From Chloroflexota bacterium (GTDB taxonomy: Bacteria > Chloroflexota > Limnocylindria > QHBO01), in NCBI GenBank assembly GCA_013816405.1, contig JACDEL010000009.1, positions 1 through 39,853 on the forward strand: a stretch of DNA of 39,853 bases, given 5' to 3'. The notes under the pieces were generated by a model that made no database searches, was not told the origin of the DNA, and saw only the letters and a program-made list of their open reading frames with translations. Of the stretch, positions 8,207 to 36,218 are shown in pieces (position 1 is the stretch's first letter; each line of letters begins with the position of its first letter). The translations under genes were made by a program, and so were the position numbers.

Positions 8207-8234
8207 GGTCGATCCCCCGCTCGCCGCACCGGCG

Positions 8235-8573: not shown

Positions 8574-8580
8574 CGGGCTG

Positions 8581-8609
8581 AGTCTAGTCGGTCATTCGGT
8601 CTGTACCAT
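8581..8609. promoter_or_regulatory. Compact divergent promoter pair (plsY operon / aceE)
   Basis: On the minus strand TAGACT (8586-8581) lies seven bases before the ATG at 8573. On the plus strand TACCAT (8604-8609) lies nine bases before the aceE ATG at 8619. Only 45 bases separate the two coding regions, which leaves no room for Shine-Dalgarno leaders and forces the two promoters to overlap. Confidence 0.45.
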
Positions 8610-8618
8610 AAGAACCCG

Positions 8619-11303
<2,685 letters not shown>

Positions 11304-11309
11304 TCGAGG

Positions 11310-20509: not shown

Positions 20510-20511
20510 CC

Positions 20512-23256
20512 CTACGTAGCCAGGGTTCCGACGGCTTCCTCGGCGCTCATCGAGCGACCCTGGAGACGAAGTGCATCGAACGTCTCACGGCCCAGGCGCG
20601 AGGTGAGCGCCCCCACGGACTGCTCATAGTCGGCCCGCGCCATCGGAGGCATCGGCGCATGGATGGACTCGCGCAGTGCCTCCGCCGCCCCCAGCAACCG
20701 GGCCGCATCCTCGGCCGCGTCGGGGGCGACCACCCAGGCAAGCTTCTCCATGGCAGAGGCGGTCCCGGGCATGTCCCGCAAGCCCTGCCGGATACGCAGA
20801 CACTCACGCTGGAGCTCTCGCGCTCGCGACCGATCGCCCTGCTGGAGGGCCAGATCGGAGAGATGCGTCAGCGTCCTGGCAACTCCCCGCTCGTCGCCCA
20901 GCTCCCGCGAAATGGCGATGGCCTGCTCGTGGAGGTTGCGCGCCGTCACCGGGTCGCCACCGCGAGCTGCTGCCAGCGCGGAGTTGTCAATCGCGAACGC
21001 CATCCCAAACCGATCCCCGAGCGAGCTGAGCATCGCGACGCTCTCTTCGAAGATGGATCGCGCCGCAGGGTAGTCCCCCTGCCGAGAAACGACGTCAGCG
21101 AGGTTGATGAGGCCTATGGCGGAGCCGTGCCGATCGCCGAGCGCGAGCGCAATCTCGTTGGCCTCCTCATAGAGCTGCCGCGCCCTGGTGTAGTCTCCCT
21201 GCTCCCCGGCGACGTTGGCCAGGTTGTGGGCGGCGAAGGCGATGCTGTGTGAATTCCCGAGCTGGCGATGCTGGGCGAGGCTCTCCTCGTGGAAGGCGAC
21301 AGCGGCTGGGTAGTCACCCTGGACTTGAGCCAGGATCCCCGCACCGGTCAGCGCGTTGGCCCGCAGCTGCGAGACCTCGCCATCGGTCGCCGCCAGGGTG
21401 CGCTGCAGCCAGCGGCGGCCCTCCATCAGGAAGCCGCGGATCTCCCAGTAGCGCCAGAGCCCGGCAGCCATCCTCAGCCCTGCCTGGGCACCTTCCGGCT
21501 CGCCAGCGTTCCACTCCAGGGCCGCGCGTAGGTTGTCGTATTCGCGGTCCAACACGGTCAGCCAGCGGACCGGAGCGGGACCGCTGAAGAAGTCGGGCTT
21601 CGCGCGCTCGACGAGGGCGAGGTACCAGTCCCGATGCCGCCGGAACGCCAATTCGGCGTCGCCTGAATCCAGGAGCCGCTCCTGCGCGTACTGGCGCACC
21701 GTCTCGAGCAGATGGAAGCGACTTTCGCCTTCGGCTGCCTCAGCCACGAGCAGCGACTTGTCGACGAGATGCGAGAGGATGTCGAGCAGATCGCCCTCCG
21801 AAATGCCGTCGCCGGAGCAGATCGTCTCGGCCGCCGCCAGGGTGCAGCCGTCGGCGAAGACGGAGAGGCGTCGAAGCACGGCTCGCTCCTCATCGGAGAG
21901 GAGGTCGTAGCTCCAGTCGATGGTCGCGCGAAGCGTCTGGTGGCGCGTCACGGCCACGCGGCTGCCACCGGTCAGGAGGCGGAAGCGGTCATCGAGGCGC
22001 GCTGCGATCTGTTCGACCGGGATGGCGCGAACCCGGGCGGCGGCCAACTCGAGCGCCAGCGGGATGCCGTCCAGGCGTTGGCAAACCTGGACGACCGACC
22101 GTGCGTTCTCGTCCGTCAGCCGAAAACCGGCAAATGCGGCGGCAGCACGGTCGACGAAGAGCTGAACCGCTTCCCATCGCGCGGCCTGCTCGGCGGAGGT
22201 GACCCGTTCAGCGTCCGGCAGCGTCAACGACGGAACGTTGAACACGCTCTCCCCTGAAATGCCCAGGGCCTCGCGACTGGTCGCCAGGATGCGCAGCGTG
22301 GGGCAACCGCTGAGGAGCGCAAAGGCATGCGTGGCGCAGGACTTGAGGAGGTGCTCGCAGTTGTCCAGCAGGACGAGGACGTGGCGCGTGCGCAGATGAT
22401 CGACCAGCGTCGCGGTAAGGGGGCGTCCGGGCTGCTCGGTGACGCCCAGAGACGCGGCGATCGACGGAAGCACCAGTCCGTCATCGGTGAGCGCGCCGAG
22501 CTCGCAGACCCAGACGCCATCCTCGAATTCATCGATGAGGTCGATCCCGAGTTGCAGGGAGAGCCTCGTCTTCCCCACCCCGCCAGGCCCGGTAAGCGTC
22601 AGGAGCGCGGCCGAAGCCAGGATCTGGCGTGCCTCCGCAAGCTCCCGATCACGGCCCACGAACGTCGTCAGCTGGCGAGGCAGATTGTTCGGTCGGCCAT
22701 CCAGCGTGCGCAGTGGCGGAAAGTCGGCGGGCAGGTCGTCGGCCACGGCCGCGAAGAGCCGGATGGGAGCGGCGAGATCCTTGAGCTGGTGTTCGCCGAG
22801 GTCGGTCAGGCTGACGCCCGGCGGGAGCTCTCCGCCAATCAGGTCGTGGGTCGTCTGCGACACGAGGATCTGCCCGCCGTGGCCGGCGGCGGAGATGCGG
22901 GCCGCTCGGTGCACGTCCAGCCCCACGAGCCCAACGTCCGAGCTCACCGGTTCTCCCGTGTGCAGGCCCATTCGCACGCGCACCGCGGCGCCATCGGGCC
23001 ATTCGTGAGTGAGGAGCGCCCGCTGGGCGGCGACCGCCCCGGCTAAGGCCGCCCGGGCGCTGGGGAAGGCGAAGTAGAGGCCGTCGCCGGCCGCGTCCCG
23101 CTCGGTACCACCGTGCGCGCCGAAGGCCGCGCGCACGAGGCGGTGGTGCTCGCTGAGGACGGATCCATATCGATCGCCCAGTCGCTGGAGAAGCTGAGTC
23201 GAGCCCTCGATATCGGTGAACACGAGGGTGATCGTGCCTGCGGCGGGGTTACTCAT
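20512..23256 (-). CDS. Class III adenylate/guanylate cyclase fused to NB-ARC ATPase and TPR repeats
   Basis: 914-aa signalling protein. Residues 1-180 are a class III nucleotide cyclase homology domain with the metal-binding FTDIEGSTQLL and the AAGDGLYFAF loop. Residues ~200-450 form a STAND/NB-ARC type ATPase with P-loop GPGGVGKTRL, Walker B LVLLDNCEH and the ATSRE sensor. The C-terminal half (about 560-850) is a run of TPR-like helical repeats (QGDYPAAVAFHEESLAQH, QGDYTRARQLYEEAN, QGDYPAARSIFEE). There is no C-terminal LuxR helix-turn-helix, so output would be cyclic nucleotide or protein contact rather than DNA binding. ATG 23256 has TAGGAT eight bases upstream (leaderless). The catalytic competence of the cyclase is untested. 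Confidence 0.92.
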   Translation of the reverse strand: MSNPAAGTITLVFTDIEGSTQLLQRLGDRYGSVLSEHHRLVRAAFGAHGGTERDAAGDGLYFAFPSARAALAGAVAAQRALLTHEWPDGAAVRVRMGLHTGEPVSSDVGLVGLDVHRAARISAAGHGGQILVSQTTHDLIGGELPPGVSLTDLGEHQLKDLAAPIRLFAAVADDLPADFPPLRTLDGRPNNLPRQLTTFVGRDRELAEARQILASAALLTLTGPGGVGKTRLSLQLGIDLIDEFEDGVWVCELGALTDDGLVLPSIAASLGVTEQPGRPLTATLVDHLRTRHVLVLLDNCEHLLKSCATHAFALLSGCPTLRILATSREALGISGESVFNVPSLTLPDAERVTSAEQAARWEAVQLFVDRAAAAFAGFRLTDENARSVVQVCQRLDGIPLALELAAARVRAIPVEQIAARLDDRFRLLTGGSRVAVTRHQTLRATIDWSYDLLSDEERAVLRRLSVFADGCTLAAAETICSGDGISEGDLLDILSHLVDKSLLVAEAAEGESRFHLLETVRQYAQERLLDSGDAELAFRRHRDWYLALVERAKPDFFSGPAPVRWLTVLDREYDNLRAALEWNAGEPEGAQAGLRMAAGLWRYWEIRGFLMEGRRWLQRTLAATDGEVSQLRANALTGAGILAQVQGDYPAAVAFHEESLAQHRQLGNSHSIAFAAHNLANVAGEQGDYTRARQLYEEANEIALALGDRHGSAIGLINLADVVSRQGDYPAARSIFEESVAMLSSLGDRFGMAFAIDNSALAAARGGDPVTARNLHEQAIAISRELGDERGVARTLTHLSDLALQQGDRSRARELQRECLRIRQGLRDMPGTASAMEKLAWVVAPDAAEDAARLLGAAEALRESIHAPMPPMARADYEQSVGALTSRLGRETFDALRLQGRSMSAEEAVGTLAT

Positions 23257-23264
23257 TCCGACGC

Positions 23265-23270
23265 ATCCTA
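23265..23270 (-). promoter_or_regulatory. Candidate -10 box of the cyclase-NB-ARC gene (leaderless)
   Basis: TAGGAT on the minus strand, eight bases from ATG 23256, no Shine-Dalgarno. Confidence 0.4.
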
Positions 23271-23315
23271 CGGGAGCGGCGGCGGCGGGGTTGGCACGGG
23301 CAGCTGAGAGTGAGC

Positions 23316-24389
23316 TCAGCGCGCGGTTACAGGCACCCGCTGGAGGAGATTGTTACCCATGCCCTGGTAGTTCCACGGCTGCTCCGCGGGTTGGACGTTG
23401 CCGGCACCGTCCGTGGCGCGGCAAGCGAGCTCATGCTCTCCTGGAGCGGCCTGCCAGTCGAACGACCAGGCGCACCAGGCGAACTCTCCGACCGGCGCAT
23501 CCAGGACGGCGTCGGCCCACTCTCCGTCGACCCCGACCTCCACTCGGGTGACGGGGCCCTCGCCTGACCACGCGCGTCCGCGCAGCTGGACATGCCCGCG
23601 ATCGACGATCCGCCGTCGCGAGAAGAAATCCGGGATCCCCGGCGGCGTCATGAGTGCCCGCACCCGGATGCGCTGTACGGGTTCGCCGACGTCATCGGCG
23701 TCGCTTTTGTATCGGTACGCATCGACCTGCTGGAAGCCCTCGAAGGGGCTCGCGATAGCCTCGATCGACGTGAGCCACTTGACGCTAGTCATGCCATACC
23801 AGCCCGGAACGATGAGCCTGAGCGGGAATCCGTGCTGTGGCTCGAGGGGCCGGCCGTTCATCTCGTACGCCAGCAGCACCTCGGGACGCATCGCATCGGC
23901 CACCGTAAGGCTGCGCGCGTAGTCGTGCTCCACGTCACCCTGTACGCCGCGGTCCGCTCCGCTGAAGACGATCTCAACCGCATCGTCCGCCAGCTCCGCC
24001 CTCTCCAGCAAGGCCGCCAGGGGCGTGCCCGTCCACTGGGCCGTGCCGACCGCCTCCACCAACCACGGCTGACTGAGCGGGCGTGGAGCCAGGCGCGCCC
24101 GTCCGTTTCCGGCGCACTCGAGGGTCACCGGGACCGTGCGGCTGGGGAGCGCCCGAATCTGGTCAAGCGTGAGCTCAACTGGCGTGTGCACGCGGCCGCC
24201 GATGCGCAGCCTCCAGTCCGCGGCATCGATAACCGGGATGTCGAAGTGGACGAGGAGGTAATGCAGCCCGGTGGGCGTGATGTCGTACTGCAGGGCCTCG
24301 AGGGGGATGCCCCGATTGCGCGTGGCGAGCTGCAGCTCCTCGACGGTAAGCGGCCCGTCGGTCGGTTCTAGCGTTTCAGCGCGTCCCAC
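23316..24389 (-). CDS. Sulfite oxidase-family molybdopterin oxidoreductase
   Basis: 357-aa enzyme of the sulfite oxidase fold. The molybdenum-ligand cysteine lies in VTLECAGNGRARLAP, followed by SQPWLVEAVGTAQWTGTPLA and HGFPLRLIVPGWYGMTSVKW, all typical of the Mo-cofactor domain. The last ~100 residues form the dimerisation beta domain. No Tat or Sec signal is visible, so it appears cytoplasmic, and no haem domain is attached. I chose GTG 24389 because family similarity begins there and TACACT (24401-24396) stands six bases before it; the open frame reaches ATG 24446. The physiological substrate (sulfite, methionine sulfoxide or other) cannot be decided. Confidence 0.87.
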   Translation of the reverse strand: MGRAETLEPTDGPLTVEELQLATRNRGIPLEALQYDITPTGLHYLLVHFDIPVIDAADWRLRIGGRVHTPVELTLDQIRALPSRTVPVTLECAGNGRARLAPRPLSQPWLVEAVGTAQWTGTPLAALLERAELADDAVEIVFSGADRGVQGDVEHDYARSLTVADAMRPEVLLAYEMNGRPLEPQHGFPLRLIVPGWYGMTSVKWLTSIEAIASPFEGFQQVDAYRYKSDADDVGEPVQRIRVRALMTPPGIPDFFSRRRIVDRGHVQLRGRAWSGEGPVTRVEVGVDGEWADAVLDAPVGEFAWCAWSFDWQAAPGEHELACRATDGAGNVQPAEQPWNYQGMGNNLLQRVPVTAR

Positions 24390-24467
24390 AAGGGGAGTGT
24401 AGGCAACAGCCGAAAGACTCGATACGGTATTCGCGCCCGCCCCCATCGGCCCGGGGCGAGGACTTCC

Positions 24468-24626: not shown

Positions 24627-24678
24627 GGTATCGAGCGTAGGCCCTCGGATTATCTGAAGAGGCCTGAGTCAGTTTGCG

Positions 24679-24768
24679 TGGCGCGCCCGGCAGGAATCGA
24701 ACCCGCAGCGCAAACGATCATCCGCATTCCGATCACGGGCCGGCCCGCGTTCGTCGCGGAGAGACGGG
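24679..24768 (-). repeat. attL-like site A: tRNA-Arg 3' fragment plus shared arm
   Basis: 24679-24706 is identical to the 3' part of the intact tRNA (T-arm, acceptor strand and CCA); the match ends abruptly after CCCGC. From 24707 to about 24768 the sequence is nearly identical to 25743-25803 (site B) but unlike the tRNA. Left of the tRNA fragment, the codons for PESVCV are shared with the recombinase end at 28504 but with different third bases. Confidence 0.65.
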
Positions 24769-24846
24769 TGGTGGCCTAGCGAGAGGTCCGGGAAACGGTC
24801 CTTCGGAGGCGAACTCCCGCGCTCATGCCCTATGGCGTCGTATCGA

Positions 24847-24876
24847 AGAGGCCGCCCGCCGACGCGGACGGCCTCT
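24847..24876. terminator. Hairpin AGAGGCCG / CGGCCTCT
   Basis: An 8-bp perfect stem (24847-24854 and 24869-24876) around a 14-base loop, followed by TCTGCTC on the plus strand. It stands between site A and the secreted-protein gene, whose stop faces it, so it may end that minus-strand transcript. There is no long T-run. Confidence 0.4.
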
Positions 24877-24999
24877 CTGCTCACCAATGGAGCGATGACG
24901 CACAAGACGACGACAATTGCTGCGACGTGTTAGGGACGATTTGGGGGACCTGGCGCCCAGACCTCCCAAGTTCGCTTTGCTGTCGGCCCGACTCAGTCG

Positions 25000-25503
25000 T
25001 TACACCCAGCGGCGGACAATCTGCCCGCTGTCCAGCGTCTCGATGCAGACGACCACGAAGCCTCCGGCGCCATCGGGGACCTCCAGCGTCCAATGGCCCA
25101 CTCCTGCGCCGCCGAACACCTGAATCTTCACCCTAAACGTCACGGCGACGGGGTGGCCGCCCGGAATGGAAAGAAACTTACCGACGACGTTCAAGGTCAC
25201 CTCGCCGTTGAGGTCCCCTGACCAGCTAACAACTTCGCCAAAGATGTTCCCCGGAAAACCCGTCGCGTCGCCATTCTGATCAACGCAGTCGAAGTGCCCC
25301 GTGGCTGAATGGTCTTCATAGAGCTTGACGTTGAGAGCGAACACGCTGGTCCCCGGGCTCGAAATCCCAAAGACCTCAGCCATGGTGGCCGTGCCGCCGC
25401 CATTGATCATCGCCACTACGTGCGGCGCCGCCGCGCTGGCAGTACCGACCTGGGCGCCAACGAGCAAGACGGCGACCGATAACGCGCTGATGAGATGCTT
25501 CAT
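25000..25503 (-). CDS. Secreted protein of unknown function, 167 aa
   Basis: Start ATG 25503 gives a classical Sec signal peptide: MKHLISALSVAVLLVGAQVG then TASA, with predicted cleavage after ASA. The upstream AGAGAGAGGG is a plausible ribosome site. The mature ~143 residues are beta-rich (ATMAEVFGISSPGTSVFALN, GEVTLNVVGKFLSIPGG, VTFRVKIQVFGGAGVGHWTL) and hold two cysteines (in FDCVDQ and VVCIET) that could form a disulfide. No catalytic motif is seen. It is the only gene between sites A and B, so it would be cargo of the outer element. Confidence 0.7.
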   Translation of the reverse strand: MKHLISALSVAVLLVGAQVGTASAAAPHVVAMINGGGTATMAEVFGISSPGTSVFALNVKLYEDHSATGHFDCVDQNGDATGFPGNIFGEVVSWSGDLNGEVTLNVVGKFLSIPGGHPVAVTFRVKIQVFGGAGVGHWTLEVPDGAGGFVVVCIETLDSGQIVRRWV

Positions 25504-25714
25504 GTGAGAACCCTCTCTCTGCCGCGCCCGCATCCGGTCCCTAGAGGCAGCGAGCGCGGCTGCGAGAAGGGTCCCTCAATCGATGTAGTGTGGGACTGCC
25601 GAACGGGCGTGTCTACCATTCGCTGTCTGCGCCGGTGACCGTAGGCACCACTCACGATGGCCACTCGTCCGCGTCGCCGCCGACCCAATTCGCGCAATTC
25701 TCGCCAACCAGCTC

Positions 25715-25803
25715 TGGTGCGCCCGGCAGGAATCGAACCCGCAGCGCAAACGATCATCCGCATCCCGATCACGGGCCGGGCCACGTTCGTCGCGAAGGAC
25801 GTT
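25715..25803 (-). repeat. attL-like site B: tRNA-Arg 3' fragment plus shared arm
   Basis: 25715-25742 matches the tRNA-Arg 3' end (discriminator base differs: ACCA-type rather than GCCA). 25743 to about 25803 is the same arm as at site A with a handful of substitutions. To its left the sequence differs from site A and from the intact tRNA. Confidence 0.6.
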
Positions 25804-26690
25804 GCATAGCCCGCCAACGGAACGTCGCACTGTCCCGTTGCGTAGTCCGCAGAAGGCGCAAACTTGGGCCACAACCGCATACGGTCATCTGTGGATTTCG
25901 CTCCGCGCTGTCGTGGAATGCTGGCGGTCGGGGCCCCAACTACAGCCCGTTGGGTAGCTCCCGCCAGACGGTAAGCCCGGTCGAGTTGCCTCCTCTAGTC
26001 CCACACGGCGGCGTGGACAAGGGCGACACTGGCAAATCCTCCTAGTCACCGCGGCCACTGGCCGCGAGGGAGGTTATCCGTGTCGCCTTTCTGTTCCCCC
26101 GGCAAGCTCCGAGTCAAGATCGCGGGTCTCCCAAGCGACCGCCTGATCGCTGCGCTTGCCGCCATGGTGCGCAGTGTCATGAATGACAAGAAACCGGCCC
26201 AGAAGGACCGGCCTCTTGCCACAAGTCCGCAGCGGGACGAACCGCCCACCGGGCTCCGGACGCAGCGCCACGCTCCGCCTGGCGCGCCGTCGTCTAGGAG
26301 CGAGCGCCCGGGCGCCTCGTGCGGGCGCCCCCGGCTCAGGATTCCGTGGCACGGCGCCCGAGGCTGGCCCGTCACCTGCTCCCATCAACGCTTCGTCCGC
26401 CCTCGCTCAGTGCCGTAGCCCGTGCCGCGAGGCAGTCGTGGTCTTTAAAGAGCTGACCTTCGAAGACGGCGTGCTGCGCGCTCCGACGACGCTTGGCGCT
26501 GATGCGCTCGACGACGCCGACCACCTCCTGCGACGTTTTGGCCGTGTCGCATTTCAACCAGCTCACCGGAGATCCGCTGGGCTTCGAGGAGATCGAGATT
26601 CTCGACGCCGAAGGTGGACCAGCCGCGACCCTGCATGATTCGCTCGCCGTAGGCTGGCGTAGGTAAGGGGCCAAGGTCCCGCCGAAGCCG
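25804..26690. other. Stretch without a convincing gene
   Basis: Several short open frames occur on both strands, but none has a recognisable family, start context or codon pattern. On the minus strand between about 26640 and 26400, two overlapping frames (GERIMQGRGWSTFGVENLD, then VVGVVERISAKRRRSAQHAV after a shift) read like pieces of one protein and may be a decayed gene. A GC-rich hairpin GGGCGCC/GGCGCCC (26310-26330) is also present. Confidence 0.4.
26186..26211 (-). terminator. Rho-independent terminator, minus strand
   Basis: Read on the minus strand, CCGGTCC (26211-26205), loop TTCT, and GGGCCGG (26200-26194) pair fully if one G:U is allowed, followed by TTTCTTGTC. It would stop transcripts coming from the decayed region or the SnoaL-like gene at 26694-27083. 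Confidence 0.55.
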
Positions 26691-26693
26691 CCG

Positions 26694-27083
26694 CTATCCC
26701 GACGCACCTTCCCGACCGTCTAGAACAGTCGGGCGACTCGGTGGCTCGTGCAGCCAGATTTCGGCGATGTGGTCGTCGTCAATCCGGTACACGCCCACCT
26801 GCCACCACTCCCTACCGTCGGCGTCCGATAACCGGAAGGGCACGACCACGAAGGGACCCGCTTCGAGCGCATCGCCGGCCTCCCAGGTGAAACCCTCCAC
26901 CAGCTCTGCTCTTTGGAGGAAGTACCGCTCAGCCTCGGCGAACCCCGTGTAGTCACCGGCCAGTTCTGCCGGCTCGGACGCGTGCACCACTGACGTTGGC
27001 GGCACAAGACGAACGAGCGAATCGCGATCTTTCATGGCCCACGCACTGAGCCAGCGTTGGACGACGTCCTGTGGTCCCATCAT
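26694..27083 (-). CDS. SnoaL-like (NTF2 fold) protein, 129 aa
   Basis: Small alpha+beta barrel protein of the SnoaL/nuclear-transport-factor-2 type, beginning MMGPQDVVQRWLSAWAMKDR, with the usual helix-rich start and the sheet-forming segments TWEAGDALEAGPFVVVPFRL and WWQVGVYRIDDDHIAEIWLH. I chose ATG 27083, which has TATGCT (27097-27092) eight bases upstream; the frame is open to 27122. The gene lies between two copies of a 23-bp direct repeat; the left copy encodes part of its C-terminus (VLDGREGAS). Members of this fold act as isomerases, hydrolases or plain binding domains, and no catalytic residues can be assigned here. Confidence 0.72.
   Translation of the reverse strand: MMGPQDVVQRWLSAWAMKDRDSLVRLVPPTSVVHASEPAELAGDYTGFAEAERYFLQRAELVEGFTWEAGDALEAGPFVVVPFRLSDADGREWWQVGVYRIDDDHIAEIWLHEPPSRPTVLDGREGASG
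26702..26724. repeat. 23-bp direct repeat, left copy
   Basis: Begins ACGCACCTTCCCGACC and ends GTCTAGA; identical to 27117-27139. Similarity extends about 11 bases further left with a few mismatches. The copies are 415 bases apart and enclose the SnoaL-like gene. Confidence 0.85.
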
Positions 27084-27116
27084 CGGACTCGAGCATAGCG
27101 AGGCGCCGGTATCCTC

Positions 27117-27139
27117 ACGCACCTTCCCGACCGTCTAGA
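27117..27139. repeat. 23-bp direct repeat, right copy
   Basis: Identical to 26702-26724. Recombinase similarity begins only four bases to its right (27143), so the repeat marks the exact point where the 5' end of the recombinase gene is lost. Confidence 0.85.
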
Positions 27140-27142
27140 TCT

Positions 27143-28538
27143 TGCTACGGCCCCGATAGCCAGCGCCGGGAACAGGACCACGCCATCGAGCGCTACGGGC
27201 TGATCGACACGGGCATCGTTTGGACCGTCGCCCAATCCGGGAAGACGGTCTGGCAGTCGCCCGAAATGGCTGCAATGCTCGGCAGCGCAGCCAGGAGTGG
27301 GTTCGACGTCCTGCTCGTCGGGTACTACGACCGCTGGCAGCGCAATCTGCGGCGATTCCTGGAACTGATCGAAGACAGTCTGCATCCCGCCGGCGCAACG
27401 CTGTTGATGTGCGACGTGCACCTGCTGTCGAGCAACGGGCGGGACTGGCAACGCATGAAGGAGCAGGCCAACCGGGCCGAGGACTACAGCATTGACCTCG
27501 GACGCCGGATCGCGGACGGCTTCGCGGCCAAGTTCAACCGCCCCTACGGCGATCAGGGAGGCACCACCCCACTCGGCTTCCGCCGCACCGCAGAGCCGCC
27601 CCACGTCCTGGAGATTGACCCCGCCACCATCGGCCAGGCGGTTCACCTGTTCAAGGAGTACGCCACGGGGCACTACTCGTTCGCATCCCTCGGGGCGCAG
27701 GTCGGCATGGCCCCGGAGCGCGTCCGCGAGATTCTGGCCGCCCCGATCTTCAACGGCTGGTATCGCCGCGGCAAGCGATCGTGAGGAGCAGCGAAAGCTC
27801 GCTCCGTGGCACGCCGACTCGCCGGTCAACGACGACCTGTGGGAGCGCGCGCAGGAGATGCAAGCCGCCCGTGCGCATGGTGGCGGGCTCCATCGGCCCG
27901 ACCGGCGAGACCCGTTGGGCCGGCTGATCTTCTGCACCTGCCGGCGCTATGTGAAGGCCAACGGCACGGATGGCTCCGGTCAGCCTCAGCGGGTTCACCC
28001 CGGCTCCTGCGCGGAGTGGCCGCGACCTACCTACCCCGCCGCCACTTGGCTGGAGCCGTTGGCGGCGCAGGTGCAGCAGATCGTTCTTGACGACGTGACG
28101 ATCGCCACTGTGGTCGATGCCTTGACGACCACGGCTCCTCGGCGCGACAAGCTGGCGCGCAAGCGGCTGGAGCGTCGGCGCCGTGAGGCCGCGGAAGCTT
28201 TTGCGGCGCGTCGCGTGACCATGAGCCAGTTCGCCGCGCAGATCGCCTCCCTTGAGGAACAGCAGCGGACTTTGGAGGCCGTCGAACCGGCAACCGAGCC
28301 CAGTGTTCCTAGCGCCGCGGCTGTCGCCTACCTGAAGGACCTGCCGGCCTTGTGGCGCGCTGCCGACGAGGCCGCTCGCGCCGACCTGTTGGCCGCGATC
28401 TACCCCCGCGTGGAGGTCCGGGGCGCCGAGTTCATAGCCGTCACACTGACGCCCGAGGCCGAAGCGCACGGGCTGGCACTTGCCTTGCCCGAATCCGTTT
28501 GCGTGGCGCGCCCGGCAGGAATCGAACCCGCGACCTGA
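27143..28538 (+). pseudogene. Serine site-specific recombinase, 5'-truncated and frameshifted
   Basis: The first part reads CYGPDSQRREQDHAIERYGL, then LLVGYYDRWQRNLRRFLELI, typical of the resolvase catalytic core, and GRRIADGFAAKFNRPYG plus a Recombinase domain (TPLGFRRTAEPPHVLEIDPA). The N-terminal ~25 residues with the catalytic serine (usual YxRVSTxxQ) are missing. At about 27780 the frame ends (WYRRGKRS) and continues in another frame (EEQRKLAPWHADSPVNDDLW) through a zinc-ribbon-like and coiled-coil tail to TGA 28536-28538. The last 12 codons (ARPAGIEPAT) lie antisense in the tRNA-Arg gene. It therefore cannot encode an active enzyme as written. Confidence 0.8.
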
Positions 28539-28579
28539 TGGTCCGAAGCCACCCGCTCTGTCCGCTGAGCTACGGGCGC
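28504..28579 (-). tRNA. tRNA-Arg (anticodon TCG)
   Basis: 76 bases including encoded CCA. The acceptor strands GCGCCCG (28579-28573) and CGGGCGC pair perfectly. The D-arm (GCTC...GAGC) is intact, the anticodon stem GGTGG/CCATC encloses the loop CTTCGGA (anticodon TCG, reads CGA), and the T-arm is GCGGG TTCGATT CCTGC. Discriminator base is G. It is the only complete copy of five tRNA-Arg pieces in the window and is overlapped at its 3' end by the recombinase reading frame. Confidence 0.95.
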
Positions 28580-28841
28580 ACATTTCACGCTCAAGCAGAG
28601 CGGAAAACTCGGGAATCGCTTAACCATAGCGCTCGGAGAGTGGAATGGGTGAGGGTCTTCGGACCCCTCGACCGGTAATGAACCATGGCATCGGTGATCC
28701 CGACTGGTCCATGGTAACCCGCCTCGACCTGGACGTGAACGTCAGCGACCGGCGATCTCAGGTCCCAGAGTCTGTGGTGTAGAGCTGTTGAGCAGCCAGC
28801 GGTTGCGATCGGGTTCCGCGCCGCTCCGGAGAGCCGCTGGC

Positions 28842-28847
28842 TATCCT
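28842..28847 (+). promoter_or_regulatory. Candidate -10 box of the GNAT pseudogene (leaderless)
   Basis: TATCCT, six bases before ATG 28854, without a Shine-Dalgarno. The stretch 28580-28841 otherwise holds the tRNA promoter flank, which is also repeated at 31918-31980. Confidence 0.35.
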
Positions 28848-28853
28848 GACCCG

Positions 28854-29386
28854 ATGAAGGTCGTCCTCGAGACTCGCCGTCTTCGGCTTCAGGAGCTCGA
28901 ACCGACCGACGTCGAGAACCTGTCTGAGATCCTTGGGGACCCAGTCGCGATGCGCTACTACCCTGCTCCTTTCGGTCACGAGCAGGTTGTATCGTGGATC
29001 GCCTGGGCGCGTGACAGCTACCGCGACAACGGGTTCGGGCTGTGGGCGGTCATCCGCGGTCGGATGGCCGGTTCCTAGGCGATTGCGGACCGATACTCCA
29101 GCCCGTCGAGGGGACGCTCATCCCCGAGATCGGATACCACATCGTCGCTGCCGAGCAGGGTCAAGGCTTCGCGACCGAGGCTGCGCGGGCCTGTCTCGAG
29201 TGGGTGTTCGCGAACACGACCTATAACGTCGTCTGCTCCCTGGTACCGCCCGAGAACGGACCGTCTCGGGCCGTCGCGGCAAAGGTCCATCGAGCGATGC
29301 GGCAATTCATCTGGGAGAAGCACAGTCGTCAGATGTGCCTCTACTGGACGGACCGCCCGTCCGCGAGCGAGCGCGGGGCCTACTAA
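28854..29386 (+). pseudogene. GNAT (RimJ/RimL-type) acetyltransferase with frameshift
   Basis: Begins MKVVLETRRLRLQELEPTDV, the standard opening of RimJ-like acetyltransferases, and reads to GFGLWAVIRGRMAGS before TAG (29076-29078). The family sequence resumes in the +1 frame as DGRFLGDCGPILQPVEG, IPEIGYHIVAAEQGQGFATE (acetyl-CoA loop Q-x-x-G-x-A/G region) and ends ...WTDRPSASERGAY. One indel near 29060-29070 explains the break. Without a full frame no enzyme would be made; if it is a sequencing error the intact product would be about 177 residues. Confidence 0.75.
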
Positions 29387-29464
29387 CCCGCCGTTTACAC
29401 CTGTCGGCAGTACGGATCCGGCCCGGACCGCTGACACGTCCGTTTGGGGCGGGCCCCGTCCGAA

Positions 29465-30337
29465 CTATGCTTCGCCGTCGGCCAAGAACCGGGCGAGGAT
29501 CGGATTGACGATGTCCGGCCGGCGGATATCGGGCCGGTGCCCGAGGCCGTCAAGGAGCATCAGGCGGGCGCCGGGATCCCGGCCGCGACCGCCTTGATCG
29601 ACGCCAGCTCGAGGGTCCGATCGGCCGCGCCGTGGACCACGAGCGTCGGACAGCGGACATCCTTAAGGTGGCGCGGTGCCTCGTCCCAGTCGAGCTCCGC
29701 CGACTGCTGGAGCAACATCGCATGGTCGGCCTCGAGCGCGATGCTGACCACCTCGGCGATCGTGGCCTGCGAGTCCGGTTCGGAGAACACCTCGCCGATG
29801 AACCACGTCACGAAGGCCGGGTAGTCCGTCCGCCAATCCGGCGCGCTAGGCCCCGCGGAGCGGTCCTCGTCGCTTGATTCGGTCGGGGTCTCGACATCGC
29901 CTTCGACCCTACCAGCCACGTCCATGGGAGGTGCGATGAGCACCATTCGGGCGACTCGGACTGGGTGATGCGCAGCAACCAGCACGGCGACGTGGGTGCC
30001 GAGCGAACCGGCCACGAGGGCGGCCGTCGACGTGTGGCTGGCATCGAGGACCGCCATCGCGTCCGCGACGTGATCGTCGAACCGATAGCCGTCGGGTGGG
30101 TGGTCGCTTGTGCCGGAACCCCGCGCGTCATAGGTAAGGACCCGAAAGCGATCACGGAGACCCTCAACCTGGTGACGCAGGACCCCGCGAGTCCACGAAG
30201 TTCCAGGTCGGAATGAAGAGGATTGAATGGGCGCCGTCGCCGTCGCCGTAACGGTGCCAGCCGATCCCGACGCCGTTGCTGTCGGCGATCCCGACCTCAT
30301 CCGGGACAGGTTGACGGATCTCAGGCGCGTAGGTCAT
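29465..30337 (-). pseudogene. Alpha/beta hydrolase with two frameshifts
   Basis: From ATG 30337 the start MTYAPEIRQPVPDEVGIADS and GVGIGWHRYGDGDGAHSILF fits the N-terminus of hydrolases found beside class III cyclases. After FIPTWNFVDSR the frame is lost and resumes in another frame as VLRHQVEGLRDRFRVLTYDA. The nucleophile elbow GSLGTH and the CPTLVVHGAADRT loop are present. Near 29575 a second shift is needed to join AVAAGIPG to RLMLLDGLGHRPDIRRPDIV, which carries the catalytic-type His and ends at TAG 29467-29465. The upstream ribosome site is AAGGTAAGCG. Confidence 0.72.
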
Positions 30338-30514
30338 CGCTTACCTTCTTCCCGGCTCGGGAGCTGGCCGGTTAGGCCACCCGGATGGTCCGGTGCGAGC
30401 CTGCACGATACTAGGCCAGCCGCCTGCAGTCTCCGCGACAACGTCCTGGCTTGGCGACCCCTGCTGCCGATGGCGCCAATGCTACTAACCCGCCGCTTGC
30501 ACCTGTACCAAGGG

Positions 30515-30868
30515 CTAGTAGTAGAGCCGGAGTTCCTTGATCTTGCGGCCGACGACGCGATAGACCGCCAGCCATTGCATCTCCTGTTCAGGGCCGTCCC
30601 GCATCTGCCAGTTGGGGACGACATCGTGGACGGCGACCCACTCGCCGACCTCGATCACTACCCGGTATTCGGCACGGACCTCCGGCATCCGGATGAAGAG
30701 TTCGGTGAACGTCTTGCGCATGGCCTCATGCCCTTCGTCGAGGACAGCGCCGTCGCGATCGATGATCCGTGCATCAGAAGCGTAAAACGACAGAAATCGA
30801 TCGACGTCATGCCGGTTGTATGCGTCGAGTTGACTACGAACCACCCCCGCGGGGTCGTGTTCGTCCAT
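30515..30868 (-). CDS. SnoaL-like (NTF2 fold) protein, 117 aa
   Basis: Start ATG 30868 has GGAGG (30880-30876) seven bases upstream. The sequence VVRSQLDAYNRHDVDRFLSF, YASDARIIDRDGAVLDEGHE and a final beta pair (MQWLAVYRVVGRKIKELRLYY) is typical of SnoaL/DUF4440-like barrels, in which a small molecule binds in a cone-shaped pocket. Two such genes occur in the island (the other at 26694-27083), but their sequences are only distantly alike. No partner enzyme is adjacent: the upstream flank on this strand holds the PhzF-like gene, 87 bases away. Confidence 0.8.
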   Translation of the reverse strand: MDEHDPAGVVRSQLDAYNRHDVDRFLSFYASDARIIDRDGAVLDEGHEAMRKTFTELFIRMPEVRAEYRVVIEVGEWVAVHDVVPNWQMRDGPEQEMQWLAVYRVVGRKIKELRLYY

Positions 30869-30954
30869 GCCAGCACCTCCAGTCACTGCTTTTTCCGAGA
30901 TTGTCACCCGAGCGCGAGACAAAATCTGAATCCCGTTGGGTTCCGTGGAAGCCG

Positions 30955-31635
30955 TTAAGTCGGATAGTCGCGGACTTCGACCAGAGCGCAGCGTCCGCCC
31001 ACCTCGACGGTGCCGTCCGGGCCTGGCTGGACGCTCAGCTCCGACCCAACGCCCTGCCGGATCATCAGAGCCCGTCCCAGGCGTGCCCCCATGAGGACAG
31101 CCGCAGCACCGCCCGCCTCATCTTCGGCAACGCCTGCCCACGTTGGGAACGAGCGCGAGCGCAGTCGCCCAGCGGACTCGTCCTTCCAGGCCCAGGCGTA
31201 CAACCATGGTTTGCTGCTGTGACCGGGCAGCGCGTCCACTTCCCCGACGGTGGCGTATTCGACGAAATGCGGCAGCACCGGAAAGTCGACCCAGGCAGGT
31301 CGCGCCCGAATCCAGGTCAGATCGCCCTCGCGCCACGTTGGCACCTCGCCGGCCGGTACACGCAGGACGCTGACCGGTCGGCCGACCTCGGCCAACAGCC
31401 ACGACGTCCCTACCGTCGGGTGGCCGGCGAAGGGGAGCTCCGCGGTTGGCACGTAGATGGCGATTTGAGCGGTTGCTAGGTCATCGACGAAGACCGTCTC
31501 GCTGAAACCCAGTTCGGCGGTCACGGCGAGGCGACGATCCTGCGGGATGACGGCGCCATCCAGAAAGACGCCGAGCTCATTTCCCCCGGTGTCGCCAGGG
31601 CCCACGAACACACGCACGACGTGAAATTTGGTCAT
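30955..31635 (-). CDS. PhzF-family isomerase/epimerase-like protein
   Basis: 226-aa protein starting MTKFHVVRVFVGPGDTGGNE at ATG 31635, with AGGAGG seven bases upstream. The family landmarks are GNELGVFL, the catalytic Glu in GFSETVFV, and LPFAGHPTVGTSWLL. The C-terminus (GVGSELSVQPGPDGTVEVGG) matches the glycine-rich second half. At 226 residues it is somewhat shorter than typical PhzF proteins (260-300). PhzF-like enzymes isomerise small acids or act as epimerases; the substrate is unknown. The open frame extends to 32175 but the added 180 residues are spurious and overlap a tRNA fragment and the MFS gene. Confidence 0.85.
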   Translation of the reverse strand: MTKFHVVRVFVGPGDTGGNELGVFLDGAVIPQDRRLAVTAELGFSETVFVDDLATAQIAIYVPTAELPFAGHPTVGTSWLLAEVGRPVSVLRVPAGEVPTWREGDLTWIRARPAWVDFPVLPHFVEYATVGEVDALPGHSSKPWLYAWAWKDESAGRLRSRSFPTWAGVAEDEAGGAAAVLMGARLGRALMIRQGVGSELSVQPGPDGTVEVGGRCALVEVRDYPT

Positions 31636-31843
31636 GCGGTCGCCTCCTGGGCACTTACCCGTGCGTTCGGGGCGCGGCGGGCGTCCCACCCGTACAAGGC
31701 GCGAGTATCGCATCGGGGGTAACCGCCGGCTGGACGATCTGGCGTTGGTGTGTTGCCGGACGAAGGCCCCCTCGCCCCGACCATTCCCGCATGTGCTTTG
31801 CGTACACCAAGACAGCGGATGATTCGACGCATTTTGGTCGGGT

Positions 31844-31917
31844 GCGCACGCTCGAGCCACAGCGCATCCGCCGATTTGGTCCGAAGCCACCCGCTCTGTC
31901 CGCTGAGCTACGGGCGC
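31844..31917 (-). repeat. attR-like site C: shared arm plus tRNA-Arg 5' fragment
   Basis: 31878-31917 matches the 5' half of the intact tRNA-Arg (acceptor strand, D-arm and anticodon arm, loop CTTCGGA). The match continues right into the tRNA promoter flank (31918 to about 31980 against 28580-28645). To its left, 31844-31877 is the same arm as at 33442-33473. The variable loop, T-arm and 3' acceptor strand are absent. Confidence 0.65.
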
Positions 31918-32048
31918 GCGTTTCACGCTCAAACAGAGCGGAAAACTGGACGAGGGATTCTGGGACAGCGCTCGGGGAGCCGAATCAGAGCCGCGGCTCG
32001 GTCTACCCGCCGTCCAATCGGCCCGGCGCCGGCGTGCTGCGCGTGCTA

Positions 32049-33305
32049 TCAGCCCTCTAGGGCGCGAACATCGGCGGCCTGCCGGATACGTGGCAATGGT
32101 GAGAACACCAGCAGCAGGATTGAGACCGCCATGCCAGCCCACCCAATGGCAATCACACCACGGACGCCGATCCAACTGGCGAGTCCGGCAGCCACAAGAG
32201 CGCCGAGCGGGTAGGCGATGCCGTGCGAGAAGACCTCGAGGGTTGCGTTGACGCGGCCCAGGATTCGGTCTGGGATGACGCCCTGGATGAGCGACAGCTC
32301 AGCCACGCCCTCGATGGTCTGGAGGCCGTCGCCGATCAATTGTGGGAGGAACACCATCAGCGTCGCGAGCAGCAGCGACCCGCCGGCGAGTGGCGTAAGC
32401 ACGCCAATGATCGATGCGCCTATGGCTGTCCCGATGAGGGCTGGTCCGAAACCAAATCGCGCAATGACCCGCGAAGCGAAGAACGAGCCGACGAGGGAGC
32501 CGACGCCGCCGGCCGAAACCACCACGCCGAGTAGGAGCGGGCTGAGCTGCAGGTCCTCGATGAGATAGATCGTGTAGAGAACCCCATAGAACGACCCGGC
32601 AACGTGGGCGATGATCGAGCGGAGTGTGAGCGGCACGAGCACGGCGTGCCGCCGGACGAGCCGGAGGCCCTCCAAGATCTCGAGCCGAATGGGCGTGGCT
32701 AACGTCCGAGCCGGACGCGGCGGCTCGCGGCTTCGGATCAGGACCAGCGAGATCGCCGAGACCATGAAAGAGATCGCGTCGACCAAGATCGCCAACGGCG
32801 CGCCGATCGCCTGAACAAGGCCACCCGCCAAGCCTGGACCACCGATCTCTGCGAGCGACGAACTCGTGGCCAGCTTGCTGTTGCCCTCGACGACGCGGTC
32901 GACCCCGATGAGCGAAGGGACGTAGGCCGGGTAGGCGGCATGGAATAGCGCGCCCAGGCAGCCCTCGAGGAAAACCACGAGGTACAGCTGTTCCATTCGC
33001 AGGTCTCCTCCGAGGTAGGTCGCAGGGATCGAGAACAGCAGTACGGCACGTACCGCGTCCGTCCAAATGAGGATTGGCCGACGTCGCAGCCGGTCGACCC
33101 AAGCACCGGCGAATAGGCCGACAAGGAGCACTGCAAGGCTCGCCGAGACCACGAGGAACGCCATCTCGAGCGGCCCCGCTTCCAGCGTGAGAACAGCGAC
33201 CAGCGGTACGGCCGTGCGGGTGACGACTGACCCGAGCTCGGAGATTGTTTGGCCGGCCCAGAGCTTTCTGAAGTCGGCGTTTCGCCAGAGCGACGCGCTC
33301 ACCAC
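32049..33305 (-). CDS. MFS transporter (MFS_3 / EntS-like)
   Basis: 418-aa intact major facilitator with 12 predicted helices and the loop 2-3 motif GLFAGAWVDRLRRRPILIWT. It starts at GTG 33305, with TAGGCT (33317-33312) six bases before and no Shine-Dalgarno. The segment FRKLWAGQTISELGSVVTRT is shared by macrolide-efflux and siderophore-export members of the family. It is the sole gene between the two right-hand tRNA fragments and so would be cargo of the outer element. A drug or metabolite efflux role is inferred from the family only. Confidence 0.9.
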   Translation of the reverse strand: MVSASLWRNADFRKLWAGQTISELGSVVTRTAVPLVAVLTLEAGPLEMAFLVVSASLAVLLVGLFAGAWVDRLRRRPILIWTDAVRAVLLFSIPATYLGGDLRMEQLYLVVFLEGCLGALFHAAYPAYVPSLIGVDRVVEGNSKLATSSSLAEIGGPGLAGGLVQAIGAPLAILVDAISFMVSAISLVLIRSREPPRPARTLATPIRLEILEGLRLVRRHAVLVPLTLRSIIAHVAGSFYGVLYTIYLIEDLQLSPLLLGVVVSAGGVGSLVGSFFASRVIARFGFGPALIGTAIGASIIGVLTPLAGGSLLLATLMVFLPQLIGDGLQTIEGVAELSLIQGVIPDRILGRVNATLEVFSHGIAYPLGALVAAGLASWIGVRGVIAIGWAGMAVSILLLVFSPLPRIRQAADVRALEG

Positions 33306-33441
33306 ACGGCGAGCCTACTGTTCCTCGCAAGCCGTAGGTACAGCGGAATCGCGGTCTCGGCTCACGTGAGTCTCGTCGCAGGCGAAGGCGCTGCGGGCGC
33401 GTTGGTACACGGCGGAGAACTCGGTCGCTCTCGCCGTGCTC

Positions 33442-33514
33442 CGCACGCTCAGGCCACAGCGCATCGACCGTTCTGGTCCGGAGGCACCCGCTCTGTCCGC
33501 TGAGTTTCGGGCGC
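33442..33514 (-). repeat. attR-like site D: shared arm plus degenerate tRNA-Arg 5' fragment
   Basis: 33474-33514 matches the tRNA-Arg 5' half with several changes: TAGCTC has become AAACTC, and the anticodon-loop equivalent reads CTCCGGA (CCG at the anticodon position) with a stem that no longer pairs. 33442-33473 is the arm shared with site C. Unlike site C, the sequence right of it does not resemble the tRNA promoter flank. It is the right limit of the island, 22 bases from the Kelch gene. Confidence 0.6.
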
Positions 33515-33536
33515 GCGAGGCGCCAAGGTAGGGCTC

Positions 33537-34940
33537 TCAGGTTCCGGTGCCGGGGTCATACAATTCGGCTGAGGCCAAGGCGTCATTTGGGCTCCCTCGC
33601 TGGCCGCCCACCACCAGAACGGTGCCGTCGGCTAGCAGTGTGGCGGTGTGACTCTGACGGCCTGCTATCAAGCTTGCCGTGGCGGTCCAGATTCCAGTGC
33701 TCGGGTCATACAGCTCGGCGGAGGCCGAGCCATCGATACCATTGGCAGCGGTGCCGCCAGTGGCCAGCACTCGCCCATCGGGCAGCAAGGTGGCGACGTA
33801 CGCCTGCCGCCCAGCGGACATGCTGCCAGTGGCCTTCCACGTCCCACTGCGGGGGTCGTACAGCTCGGCTGACTTCAGCGATGGGTCGCTCCTGGCCCCG
33901 CCGCCCGCCACGAGCACGTCGCCTCCGGCAAGCAACGTAGCGGTAGGCGACGTTCGCTCCGTGGTCATGCTGCCGGTGACGCTCCACGTCCCGGTGGCGG
34001 GGTCGTACAGCTCAGCGGAGGCCTGAAATTCACCGATGTCCGAGTCCGACGCCCCAAACCGCACGCCACCTGCCACCAGCACATTGCCATCGTTTAGCAG
34101 GGTGGCGGTTTGAGATTCGCGGGCCGTGGCCATGCTCCCGGTCGGGCTCCACGTCCCGGTGGCGGGGTCGTAGAGCTCAGCGGAGGCGAGCGTTGTACCC
34201 TGGCCAGAGACGGAGGCGTCATTGCCGCCCGCCACGAGGACCTTGCCATCCGCTAGGAGTGTGGCGGTGCCCCATCTGCGTGCGGTCGTCATGCTGCCAG
34301 TGACGCTCCACGTCCCCGTGCTCGGGTCGTATAGCTCCGCCGAGGAAAGAGCCGCCGGCTGGCTGTACCCGCCAGCGACAAGGACCTTCCCGTCGGCCAG
34401 CAGGGTGGCAGTCTGATGCTCGCGTGCAGTCGTCAGGCTGCCGGTCACGTTCCACCTACCGGTAAGTGGGTCGTACAGCTCAGCCGATGCCAGCAAACCG
34501 ATGTAGGCGTTACCGCCCACCACCAGGACCTTGCCATCTTCGAGCAGCGTTGAGGTGTGGTATTCACGCGTCGTGGCGAGGCTCCCGGTGGCGCTCCACG
34601 CCGCAGCCCTCGGGGGAGACTCAGTCGGCTGCGCCGAAGGGCTCACGACTCCCGGCTGACTCGGGTTCGGCGAGTCGGACGGCGCTCCAATCGGCGGACC
34701 GCGGGTGATGTCGACCACGACGAAGGCAACCAGGCCGACGGCCAGGATCAGCACCGCGGCGGCGGCGATCTTCGCGAAGTTGGACATGGTGCTGTACCTC
34801 CACGACACGCCCCAGACGCGTCGCTGCTTGGTGCCATCGATCATCTCGAGCGCCGTGTCGAGCACGCGGTCGGGAACAACCGTGGGCCCCTCCTCGAACC
34901 AACGGTCGAGAACGTGCTGGATGTCAGGCTTGTTCTTCAC
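33537..34940 (-). CDS. Membrane-anchored seven-bladed Kelch protein, probable anti-sigma factor
   Basis: 467-aa protein starting GTG 34940, overlapping the sigma factor gene by 17 bases. Residues 1-50 are cytoplasmic (DIQHVLDRWFEEGPTVVPDR), residues ~54-76 form one membrane helix (KIAAAAVLILAVGLVAFVVV), then a Pro/Ser-rich linker leads to seven Kelch repeats of ~49 residues, each ending SAELYDP-x-TG-x-W. The propeller would be outside the cell. The sequence ends exactly at the end of the seventh repeat (YDPGTGT). Translational overlap with an ECF sigma gene and the cytoplasmic tail plus helix plus sensor layout suggest an anti-sigma factor whose propeller senses an external signal. The short N-terminal part does not show the canonical zinc-binding HxxxCxxC motif. 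Confidence 0.85.
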   Translation of the reverse strand: MKNKPDIQHVLDRWFEEGPTVVPDRVLDTALEMIDGTKQRRVWGVSWRYSTMSNFAKIAAAAVLILAVGLVAFVVVDITRGPPIGAPSDSPNPSQPGVVSPSAQPTESPPRAAAWSATGSLATTREYHTSTLLEDGKVLVVGGNAYIGLLASAELYDPLTGRWNVTGSLTTAREHQTATLLADGKVLVAGGYSQPAALSSAELYDPSTGTWSVTGSMTTARRWGTATLLADGKVLVAGGNDASVSGQGTTLASAELYDPATGTWSPTGSMATARESQTATLLNDGNVLVAGGVRFGASDSDIGEFQASAELYDPATGTWSVTGSMTTERTSPTATLLAGGDVLVAGGGARSDPSLKSAELYDPRSGTWKATGSMSAGRQAYVATLLPDGRVLATGGTAANGIDGSASAELYDPSTGIWTATASLIAGRQSHTATLLADGTVLVVGGQRGSPNDALASAELYDPGTGT

Positions 34941-35532
34941 GCTCGGCCTCCTCAATCGGCAGGCCCCGCGCGTCGGCCTCGAGAGCGGCACGCATGGCGC
35001 GGTGCGCGTAATGCAGTCGTGAACGAGCTGTCCCCGCAGGTATCCCGAGTGTCTCGGCAATGTCCGTCGGTGATAGCCCAATGTAGTGATGCATCACCAG
35101 GATCGCCCGCTGCTCCGGCGGCAGGCGACGAAAGCCACGCTCGAGCTGATCGCGGTCCCCGACCGAGATGATGTCGTCGCGTCGGCTCGGCTCATCGGGG
35201 AGCAGGGTCACGACACTGGCGTTCCATCGCCGCGCCCGCTTTGACTCCTCGTAACAGACCCTGACCAGCACACGACGCAGCCAGGCCTCAAAGCGAGCCG
35301 GATCGCGGAGTGTCGGCAGCTCTCGCCAGGCGATCACCAACGCTTGCTGCACGGCATCCTCAGCTCGCTCGTAGTCCCGCAGGATTCGGTGCGCGACAGC
35401 GAAGAGCCAATCGCCGTGCAGGCGCGCGAGGAGGCCGAAGGCTTCCTTGTCGCCGTGCCGTGCCTGCTCAACGAGGTCCCGATCCATCTCCCGCCGTCCT
35501 GTGGGCATGCCAGATGGCACATCACCCTTCAT
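34924..35532 (-). CDS. ECF (extracytoplasmic function) RNA polymerase sigma factor
   Basis: About 187-202 aa depending on the start. Region 2 is RHGDKEAFGLLARLHGDWLF with the promoter -10 recognition helix DAVQQALVIAWRELPTLRDP; region 4 is RGFRRLPPEQRAILVMHHYI followed by the helix-turn-helix LSPTDIAETLGIPAGTARSR. ATG 35532 and ATG 35487 (MDRDLVEQARHGD) are both possible; family similarity begins at the latter. No clear ribosome site or leaderless box stands before either. The Kelch gene overlaps its 3' end, giving a two-gene sigma/anti-sigma unit that probably responds to an extracellular signal. Confidence 0.93.
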   Translation of the reverse strand: MKGDVPSGMPTGRREMDRDLVEQARHGDKEAFGLLARLHGDWLFAVAHRILRDYERAEDAVQQALVIAWRELPTLRDPARFEAWLRRVLVRVCYEESKRARRWNASVVTLLPDEPSRRDDIISVGDRDQLERGFRRLPPEQRAILVMHHYIGLSPTDIAETLGIPAGTARSRLHYAHRAMRAALEADARGLPIEEAEREEQA

Positions 35533-36201: not shown

Positions 36202-36218
36202 CGGCCTACCCTCCTTAT

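Follow-up and report, generated by a model that had tools for sequence, protein, structure and literature searches.

Displaced tRNA-Arg halves on both sides of a Chloroflexota tRNA-Arg(TCG) gene point to two one-sided stacks of integrated elements

In this work, we describe the surroundings of a tRNA-Arg(TCG) gene in a Chloroflexota bacterium. The window, meaning the whole analysed stretch of 39,853 nucleotides (nt) (assembly GCA_013816405.1, contig JACDEL010000009.1, positions 1 to 39,853), is part of a contig of 49 kb; the genome measures 2.5 Mb. The intact gene is accompanied by four of its own fragments, two 3' halves on the left and two 5' halves on the right. It is highly probable that this arrangement arose through two independent one-sided accretions, in which elements of unrelated families were added on opposite sides of one tRNA-Arg(TCG); the accretion on the right is well supported. 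On this reading, both halves of the present intact gene, the 5' and the 3', came from elements.

The tRNA-Arg(TCG) locus and its relatives

The tRNA sequences of the window are the following:
28504-28579, minus strand: intact tRNA-Arg(TCG), the common target, and the sole tRNA found in the window by ARAGORN
24679-24706, minus strand: outer displaced 3' half (nt 49-76), 28/28 identical to the intact gene
25715-25742, minus strand: inner displaced 3' half, 27/28 identical to the intact gene
31877-31917, minus strand: inner displaced 5' half (nt 1-41), 100% identical (40/40 over 31878-31917)
33474-33514, minus strand: outer displaced 5' half, 36/40 identical to the intact gene, read as the oldest and native piece

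An earlier reading of this DNA, made from the sequence alone (the sequence-only reading), had reported five tRNA-Arg pieces and proposed site-specific integration at this gene. The five pieces and both repeated arms proved to be real, exact tRNA matches of 28-40 nt combined with recurring arms being far beyond chance. Site-specific integration is supported. The outer right piece had also been called the most degraded, which agrees with 36/40 against 40/40 matches. The gene is probably essential, and a search with its 5' half found no close second tRNA-Arg copy in the genome. A far-fetched explanation, to which we give almost no credence, is that tRNA genes duplicated or recombined homologously with one another and left the pieces behind, without any site-specific process; tRNA genes are often recombination substrates, but the fixed breakpoints, the conserved non-tRNA arms and the recombinase genes in fixed positions described below argue against it.

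The 5' pieces, oriented like the intact gene and situated upstream of it, stop at nt 41, while the 3' pieces begin at nt 49, so that the seven nucleotides 42-48 are present in neither type of piece. Conservative site-specific recombination retains every target base. Therefore, the 5' and 3' pieces of the window cannot be the halves of one split gene. This bears directly on the sequence-only reading, which had paired 24679 with 33474 and 25715 with 31878 as the ends of two nested elements. In such a nesting, each element would split the tRNA, leaving a 5' piece on the right and a 3' piece on the left, and would bring a whole replacement tRNA that serves as the next target. The equal numbers of pieces in the window (two and two), the single piece of each type in the relative G015 and the precedent of phages that carry whole tRNAs (PMC10865867) speak for it. 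Nevertheless, nesting is very improbable, and the proposed pairs did not hold: apart from the missing nucleotides, the relative G002 carries 5' pieces only, tRNA-Gly in the same genome as the window has one 5' and two 3' pieces, and the piece at 24679 is flanked by codons of a serine recombinase C-terminus, not by native chromosome. A split of the type seen in tRNA-dependent lysogeny, with a whole separate tRNA, is likewise contradicted by the missing nt 42-48 together with the one-sided array of G002.

The related genomes show the locus in various states of occupation. In G001, of the same genus, tRNA-Arg is intact and retains its native promoter GTACAAT; no fragments occur in the surrounding 20 kb, and the kelch gene upstream is a homolog of window 33537-35081. 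In G002, also of the same genus, the intact tRNA-Arg has three 5' pieces on its upstream side and no 3' piece on the other; the tRNA 3' end is only 47 nt from a native homolog of window 18962-20161. The outermost 5' piece of G002 retains the flank GTACAATGGCGCCTCGC and adjoins a homolog of window 35773-36396. Thus, a right-hand stack can form alone. Synteny between the window and G002 stops at about 20176, not at 24678. G015 has one 5' and one 3' piece, while G017 (contig JAGXHP010000056) has six 5' pieces inside 17 kb; the contigs of two further relatives are JACCWY (G019) and VBGQ (G006).

The right-hand (5') stack and its recombinase family

Upstream of the intact gene, the following arms and flanks were recognised:
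28580-28640, minus strand: P arm (element-carried promoter or leader plus arm repeats) upstream of the intact tRNA, 96% identical over 71 nt to the flank of the piece at 31878
31808-31876, minus strand: P' arm of the element between 28580 and 31876 (match to arm model R1 at 31810-31884, E 6e-17; alignment A1)
31918-31979, minus strand: P arm of the older right-side element, 83% identical over 103 nt (tRNA 5' half plus flank) to the upstream region of the intact gene
33405-33473, minus strand: P' arm of the older right-side element (match to model R1 at 33408-33480, E 2.9e-14)
33515-33540, minus strand: native 5' flank of the original tRNA, having GCGCCTCGC in common with the outermost G002 piece, which adjoins native genes

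Identity between the two right arms, tRNA piece included, is 87% over 76 nt; the shared arm of about 33 bp noticed previously is real but longer, with about 70 bp conserved. A leader, CCGCTCT..TTGAGCGTGAA, precedes both the pieces and the occupied intact genes in G002, G004, G005, G006, G015 and G017, and is absent upstream of tRNA-Arg in the unoccupied G001. Additionally, the flank that precedes the intact gene and the piece at 31878 repeats arm-related motifs (GCGCTGTGGCAC.., AGTTATCCGCTCT..TTGAGCGTGAA). This flank stands before occupied tRNAs and is missing in G001, and it looks like the other arm of an element attachment site (attP) that would substitute for the native promoter. The flank shared by the inner piece and the intact gene is not simply a tRNA promoter, as had been supposed, but looks like a recombinase arm; of the idea that each element supplies a whole tRNA with its promoter, the element-supplied promoter flank stands and the whole replacement tRNA is not supported. 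The native flank is kept only at the outermost right piece (33474), as accretion predicts, and its promoter has decayed there from the TACAAT of G002 and G001 to TACCTT.

Specifically, the elements of the right side would end in an attP composed of a P arm with a promoter, a tRNA 5' half and a P' arm. A Xer-like tyrosine recombinase would exchange strands in the anticodon loop, so that the promoter and 5' half of the element join the resident 3' half and the tRNA is restored, while the old 5' half is displaced outward and capped by the P' arm. Repeated insertion would then leave the native 5' half at the far end of a growing stack. A recombinase gene has been lost from most cassettes, which presumably depend on mobilisation in trans or are defunct.

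As the sequence-only reading had suggested they might, arms joined to tRNA pieces reappear in related genomes. An alignment of 23 sites over 77 nt gave the consensus TCGGACCATCCCGGCCGATGCGCTGTGGC..GAGCGTGG..GAGCG..CGAGTTATCTGCT. A model of the arm has matches in 45 of the 177 class genomes. There the arm adjoins 5' halves of tRNA-Arg, Gly(TCC), His and Thr; mirrored copies adjoin 3' halves of tRNA-Gly, Val and Thr, and the arm also follows a displaced tRNA-Leu 5' half in G002. The arrays include those at tRNA-Gly in G005 (three 5' pieces), G088 (intact gene plus four pieces) and G072 (intact gene plus six pieces, two of them partial), and at tRNA-Thr in G116 (intact gene plus four 3' pieces). 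In the genome of the window, tRNA-Gly(TCC) bears a two-sided stack as well (contig C31, L167, 3815-13727), with one 5' piece, the intact gene and two 3' pieces; no PF00589 gene was found on that contig. Among arm-linked pieces, the majority of 5' halves stop at nt 37-42 and the majority of 3' halves begin at nt 27-32. These limits bracket the anticodon loop and would put the crossover at about nt 30-42. The breaks had been placed in the variable loop and T-stem; this is correct for the left side (nt 49, in the T-stem), but the right-hand break lies at the anticodon loop. The anticodon loop is a classical crossover site of tyrosine integrases, and the unusual feature of the right side is that a 5' half is carried, not the position of the break.

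Two other interpretations of the arms were abandoned. Folded sites like the attC sites of integron cassettes were ruled out, as the 23 arms have no conserved hairpin or fold and no compensatory pairs. A variable 7-nt block was first compared with the coupling sequences of Tn916, but it makes better sense as a core half-site on the element side, outside the overlap in the anticodon loop. Among 47 genome-contig stretches with the right-arm pattern, most lack a tRNA half, and none of the four matches in viral contigs has one. At three places (L090:3846-3935, L116:7024-7113 and L048:9252-9341) the right arm is joined to non-tRNA sequence, two of them with an inverted repeat, e.g. GGATAGCTTCGGACTATCC; it is possible that these are secondary integration sites sharing only the anticodon-loop core.

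The recombinase itself is a Xer-like tyrosine recombinase of 300-340 amino acids (aa), encoded upstream of tRNA-His and tRNA-Leu(TAG) in the genome of the window and upstream of tRNA-Leu(TAG) in G002. The intact proteins of the G002 tRNA-Leu element and of the tRNA-His element have 314 and 315 aa. Among solved or curated proteins, XerD and XerC come closest, under the curated cut-offs; XerC/XerD profiles score best, and the integron-integrase model falls far under its cut-off, which speaks against an IntI-type integrase. Relatives at E <= 1e-40 occur in 61 of the 177 genomes. In 27 of the best 30 loci, an intact tRNA lies 53-176 bp from the recombinase, and 21 of these recombinases face the tRNA 5' end and six the 3' end, a ratio biased towards the 5' end because the query was built from 5'-facing members plus one unassigned. 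Displaced halves of the predicted polarity lie 4-12 kb from the recombinase loci for tRNA-Leu, Gly and Met (5'-facing) and for tRNA-Gly (3'-facing); in the tRNA-Leu element of G002, a 42-nt displaced 5' half, 100% identical, is found at a distance of 12 kb, with the arm directly behind it. The tRNA-His locus of the window's genome (contig C71, L055, 1765-2895), about 1.1 kb past the window end, has an intact family recombinase divergently upstream, and a displaced tRNA-His 5' half with its arm is located on another contig, C5 (L171:2801-2842). Relatives of the recombinase are also common in IMG/VR viral contigs (loci L237-L316), with up to 58% identity, and some of these lie within 110-180 bp of a tRNA gene, in one orientation or the other.

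These arrays may be plain tandem phage or plasmid integrations that have decayed, with no special cassette system and with the lack of recombinases due to deletion; we regard this as a realistic explanation, though one to which we would not give the better chance. Decayed recombinase copies lie beside array pieces in G002, G017 and G011, relatives are common in viral contigs as noted above, and the tRNA-Leu element of G002 contains SSB-like and replication-initiation-like genes, so that members able to move by themselves may be related to phages or be small plasmids that integrate. On the other hand, no family recombinase was found in any segment of the G005, G072, G085, G088 and G116 arrays, and these recombinase-free segments, of 1-6 kb, open in well-conserved arms. 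A bolder reading is a dedicated tRNA-anticodon cassette system in this Chloroflexota class, in which the Xer-like family would act in trans to insert recombinase-less cassettes, recognisable only by their tRNA half and conserved arms, at many tRNA genes, with left- and right-handed versions stacking and repeatedly replacing the promoter; such a system is conceivable, and we hold it at about the same doubtful level.

The left-hand (3') stack and a large serine recombinase

Downstream of the intact gene, the features are these:
24707-24761, minus strand: left arm (second arm family), 94% identical to 25743-25797 and 79% identical over 56 nt, tRNA piece included, in G015
25743-25797, minus strand: left arm of the youngest left element (pair alignment with 24707-24761)
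25000-25533, minus strand: main open reading frame of the ~1-kb left element 24707-25714, without a Pfam match
27146-28535, plus strand: large serine recombinase pseudogene, 54%/40% to the intact 502-aa recombinase of G025
24640-24678, plus strand: serine recombinase C-terminus remnant (..RPESVCVARPAGIEPA), in the 39 nt before the piece at 24679
20258-24446, no strand assigned: non-syntenic DNA past the left pieces (SCO4226-like, cyclase/NB-ARC/TPR and Mo-cofactor oxidoreductase, by Pfam), probably the oldest left element

The two left 3' pieces had been described as sharing one arm, and they do so at 94% identity over 83 nt, tRNA piece included. Next to the intact gene lies a serine recombinase gene whose C-terminus enters the tRNA 3' half in antisense. 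A resolvase domain (PF00239) was detected at 27071-27784, and the 54% identity to the G025 protein makes it a homolog of the large serine recombinases. The window copy is dead, with its N-terminus missing and a frameshift near 27784. The intact G025 recombinase occupies the same position, overlapping tRNA-Arg(CCG) in antisense, and of nine related serine recombinase genes that have a neighbouring tRNA, eight extend over the 3' end of that tRNA, by 21-101 nt; across loci L026-L040, the overlapped 3' ends belong to tRNA-Arg, Pro, Val, Ala and Leu, although the usual statement is that tRNA genes are rarely or never targets of serine recombinases. Direct repeats of 39 bp (90%) at window 26686-26724 and 27101-27139 flank a SnoaL-like gene that occupies the expected place of the recombinase N-terminus and is possibly another insertion unit.

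Read through into the tRNA piece, the 39 nt that precede 24679 encode the C-terminus PESVCVARPAGIEPA, which matches the recombinase at 27146-28535. The piece at 24679 was therefore the terminus of a previous element on this side. We propose that left elements, with a large serine recombinase overlapping the tRNA 3' end, would carry a 3' half and cross over in the T-arm, so that each insertion displaces the old 3' half outward. The assignment of the left arms, with their break at nt 49 in the T-stem, to the large serine recombinase of the window is put forward with moderate confidence, on the ground that eight of nine relatives overlap tRNA 3' ends.

An alternative is that the left pieces represent a third variant of the tyrosine system with a T-arm crossover, the adjacent serine recombinase being an unrelated passenger. 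Mirrored 3'-half versions of the tyrosine system do exist, and a live recombinase is absent from most of the left-side DNA. However, the left arms lack the motif of the tyrosine system, and the break at nt 49 differs from the nt 27-32 of most mirrored pieces; these differences, the overlap of related serine recombinases with tRNA 3' ends and the C-terminal codons before the outer left piece make this alternative unlikely.

Several observations weigh against the two-sided accretion favoured here. The assignment of the left side depends on adjacency and on the C-terminal remnant, and the window copy of the recombinase is dead. In stretches of up to 40 kb, the other serine recombinases showed no displaced 3' half, and a search at about 20180 detected no native 3' piece (score 15, with shuffled sequences averaging 17). 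On the right, no family recombinase was found within the window, 28580-33474 included, and one has to go to tRNA-His, about 1.1 kb past the window end, to find the closest intact copy of the genome; the right-hand segments are therefore taken as non-autonomous relatives working like recombinase-bearing elements. Neither an excised circle nor an empty-site strain of the window's species was seen.

Cargo, known systems and meaning

The cargo of the two right-hand elements of the window is as follows:
28788-31635, no strand assigned: younger right element, with a GNAT acetyltransferase (broken), an alpha/beta hydrolase, a SnoaL-like and a PhzF-like protein
32049-33305, minus strand: older right element, with an MFS transporter

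Taken together, the segments carry accessory genes of an ordinary sort, for GNAT, alpha/beta hydrolase, SnoaL-like, PhzF-like, MFS, TetR, ECF sigma, kinase and Fic proteins, and no mobilisation functions apart from integrase genes were recognised in the scanned proteins. Class III cyclase proteins recur as cargo, mostly with ATPase or TPR regions. These adenylate/guanylate cyclases were located at window 20512-23256, L044:4959-8504 and 8871-11057, L167:4419-7556 and 8203-11766, and L175:7316-10204, and two of the cargo cyclases match Pycsar cyclase models. A 25-bp repeat (92%), CTACTAACCCGCCGYTTRCACCTGT, lies between cargo genes at window 29380-29404 and 30482-30506.

Parts of this arrangement resemble known systems. 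In the islands catalogued by Islander, attP also holds part of the tRNA, the gene is restored and a displaced fragment marks the far end, the anticodon loop is a known crossover subsite and tandem arrays are known; however, only 159 of 3919 islands (4%) have a 5' fragment, four tandems of three or more are listed, and each tandem member needs its own integrase gene, whereas here 5' pieces are common, both sides of the tRNA are occupied and arrays consist of three to six mostly integrase-less segments (PMC4383910). The ssrA islands of Dehalococcoides, of which 16 of 31 have an integration module, are like the left side of the window in phylum, in tandem cargo and in a serine recombinase gene at the end with the ssrA repeat, but they target the tmRNA gene, stack downstream only and have no tyrosine partner carrying a 5' half (PMC3146451). 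Similarly, archaeal pTN3-type integrases use a tRNA 5' half as attB and the restored tRNA is expressed from element DNA, a use of the 5' half termed seldom in bacteria; in contrast to the elements described here, their integrase gene is split on integration, there are no non-autonomous cassette arrays, and a mirror form is not described there (PMC8371274).

Tycheposons and additive islands share with the present elements a Xer-like tyrosine recombinase, a tRNA boundary, repeated tRNA ends and metabolic cargo; the additive island described there is bounded by tRNA-end repeats, and neither two-sided 5'/3' stacks nor the present arms appear (PMC10872708). Phage tRNA-dependent lysogeny likewise avoids breaking an essential tRNA, but it does so with a whole separate tRNA, while here the tRNA would be rebuilt from halves (PMC10865867). 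Serine recombinases at tRNA genes are termed rare; the examples given, the Mycobacterium tRNA-Leu actinomycete integrative and conjugative elements (AICEs) and phage phiRSM1, target a tRNA as here but are single elements in other phyla (PMC3218068). The literature search returned nothing that matches Chloroflexota tRNA cassette arrays, and the combination of two-sided stacks, a mostly 5'-handed Xer-like family with mirror forms and long recombinase-poor arrays is undescribed in the open-access literature searched.

Surveys of the Islander type find almost only 3'-half islands and score tandem arrays only if each member has an integrase. A mostly 5'-half family that replaces the promoters of essential tRNAs and stacks on both sides would be missed or miscalled by such tools. 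The complementarity of breakpoints offers a simple test of nesting against two-sided accretion, and the recombinases constitute a set with naturally paired left- and right-handed tRNA targets. For the organisms themselves, the stacks suggest how new genes may be gained in a phylum of which few members have been cultured, an idea that can be tested; if a dedicated cassette system does exist, tRNA genes would act in this class as integron-like platforms for gene acquisition.

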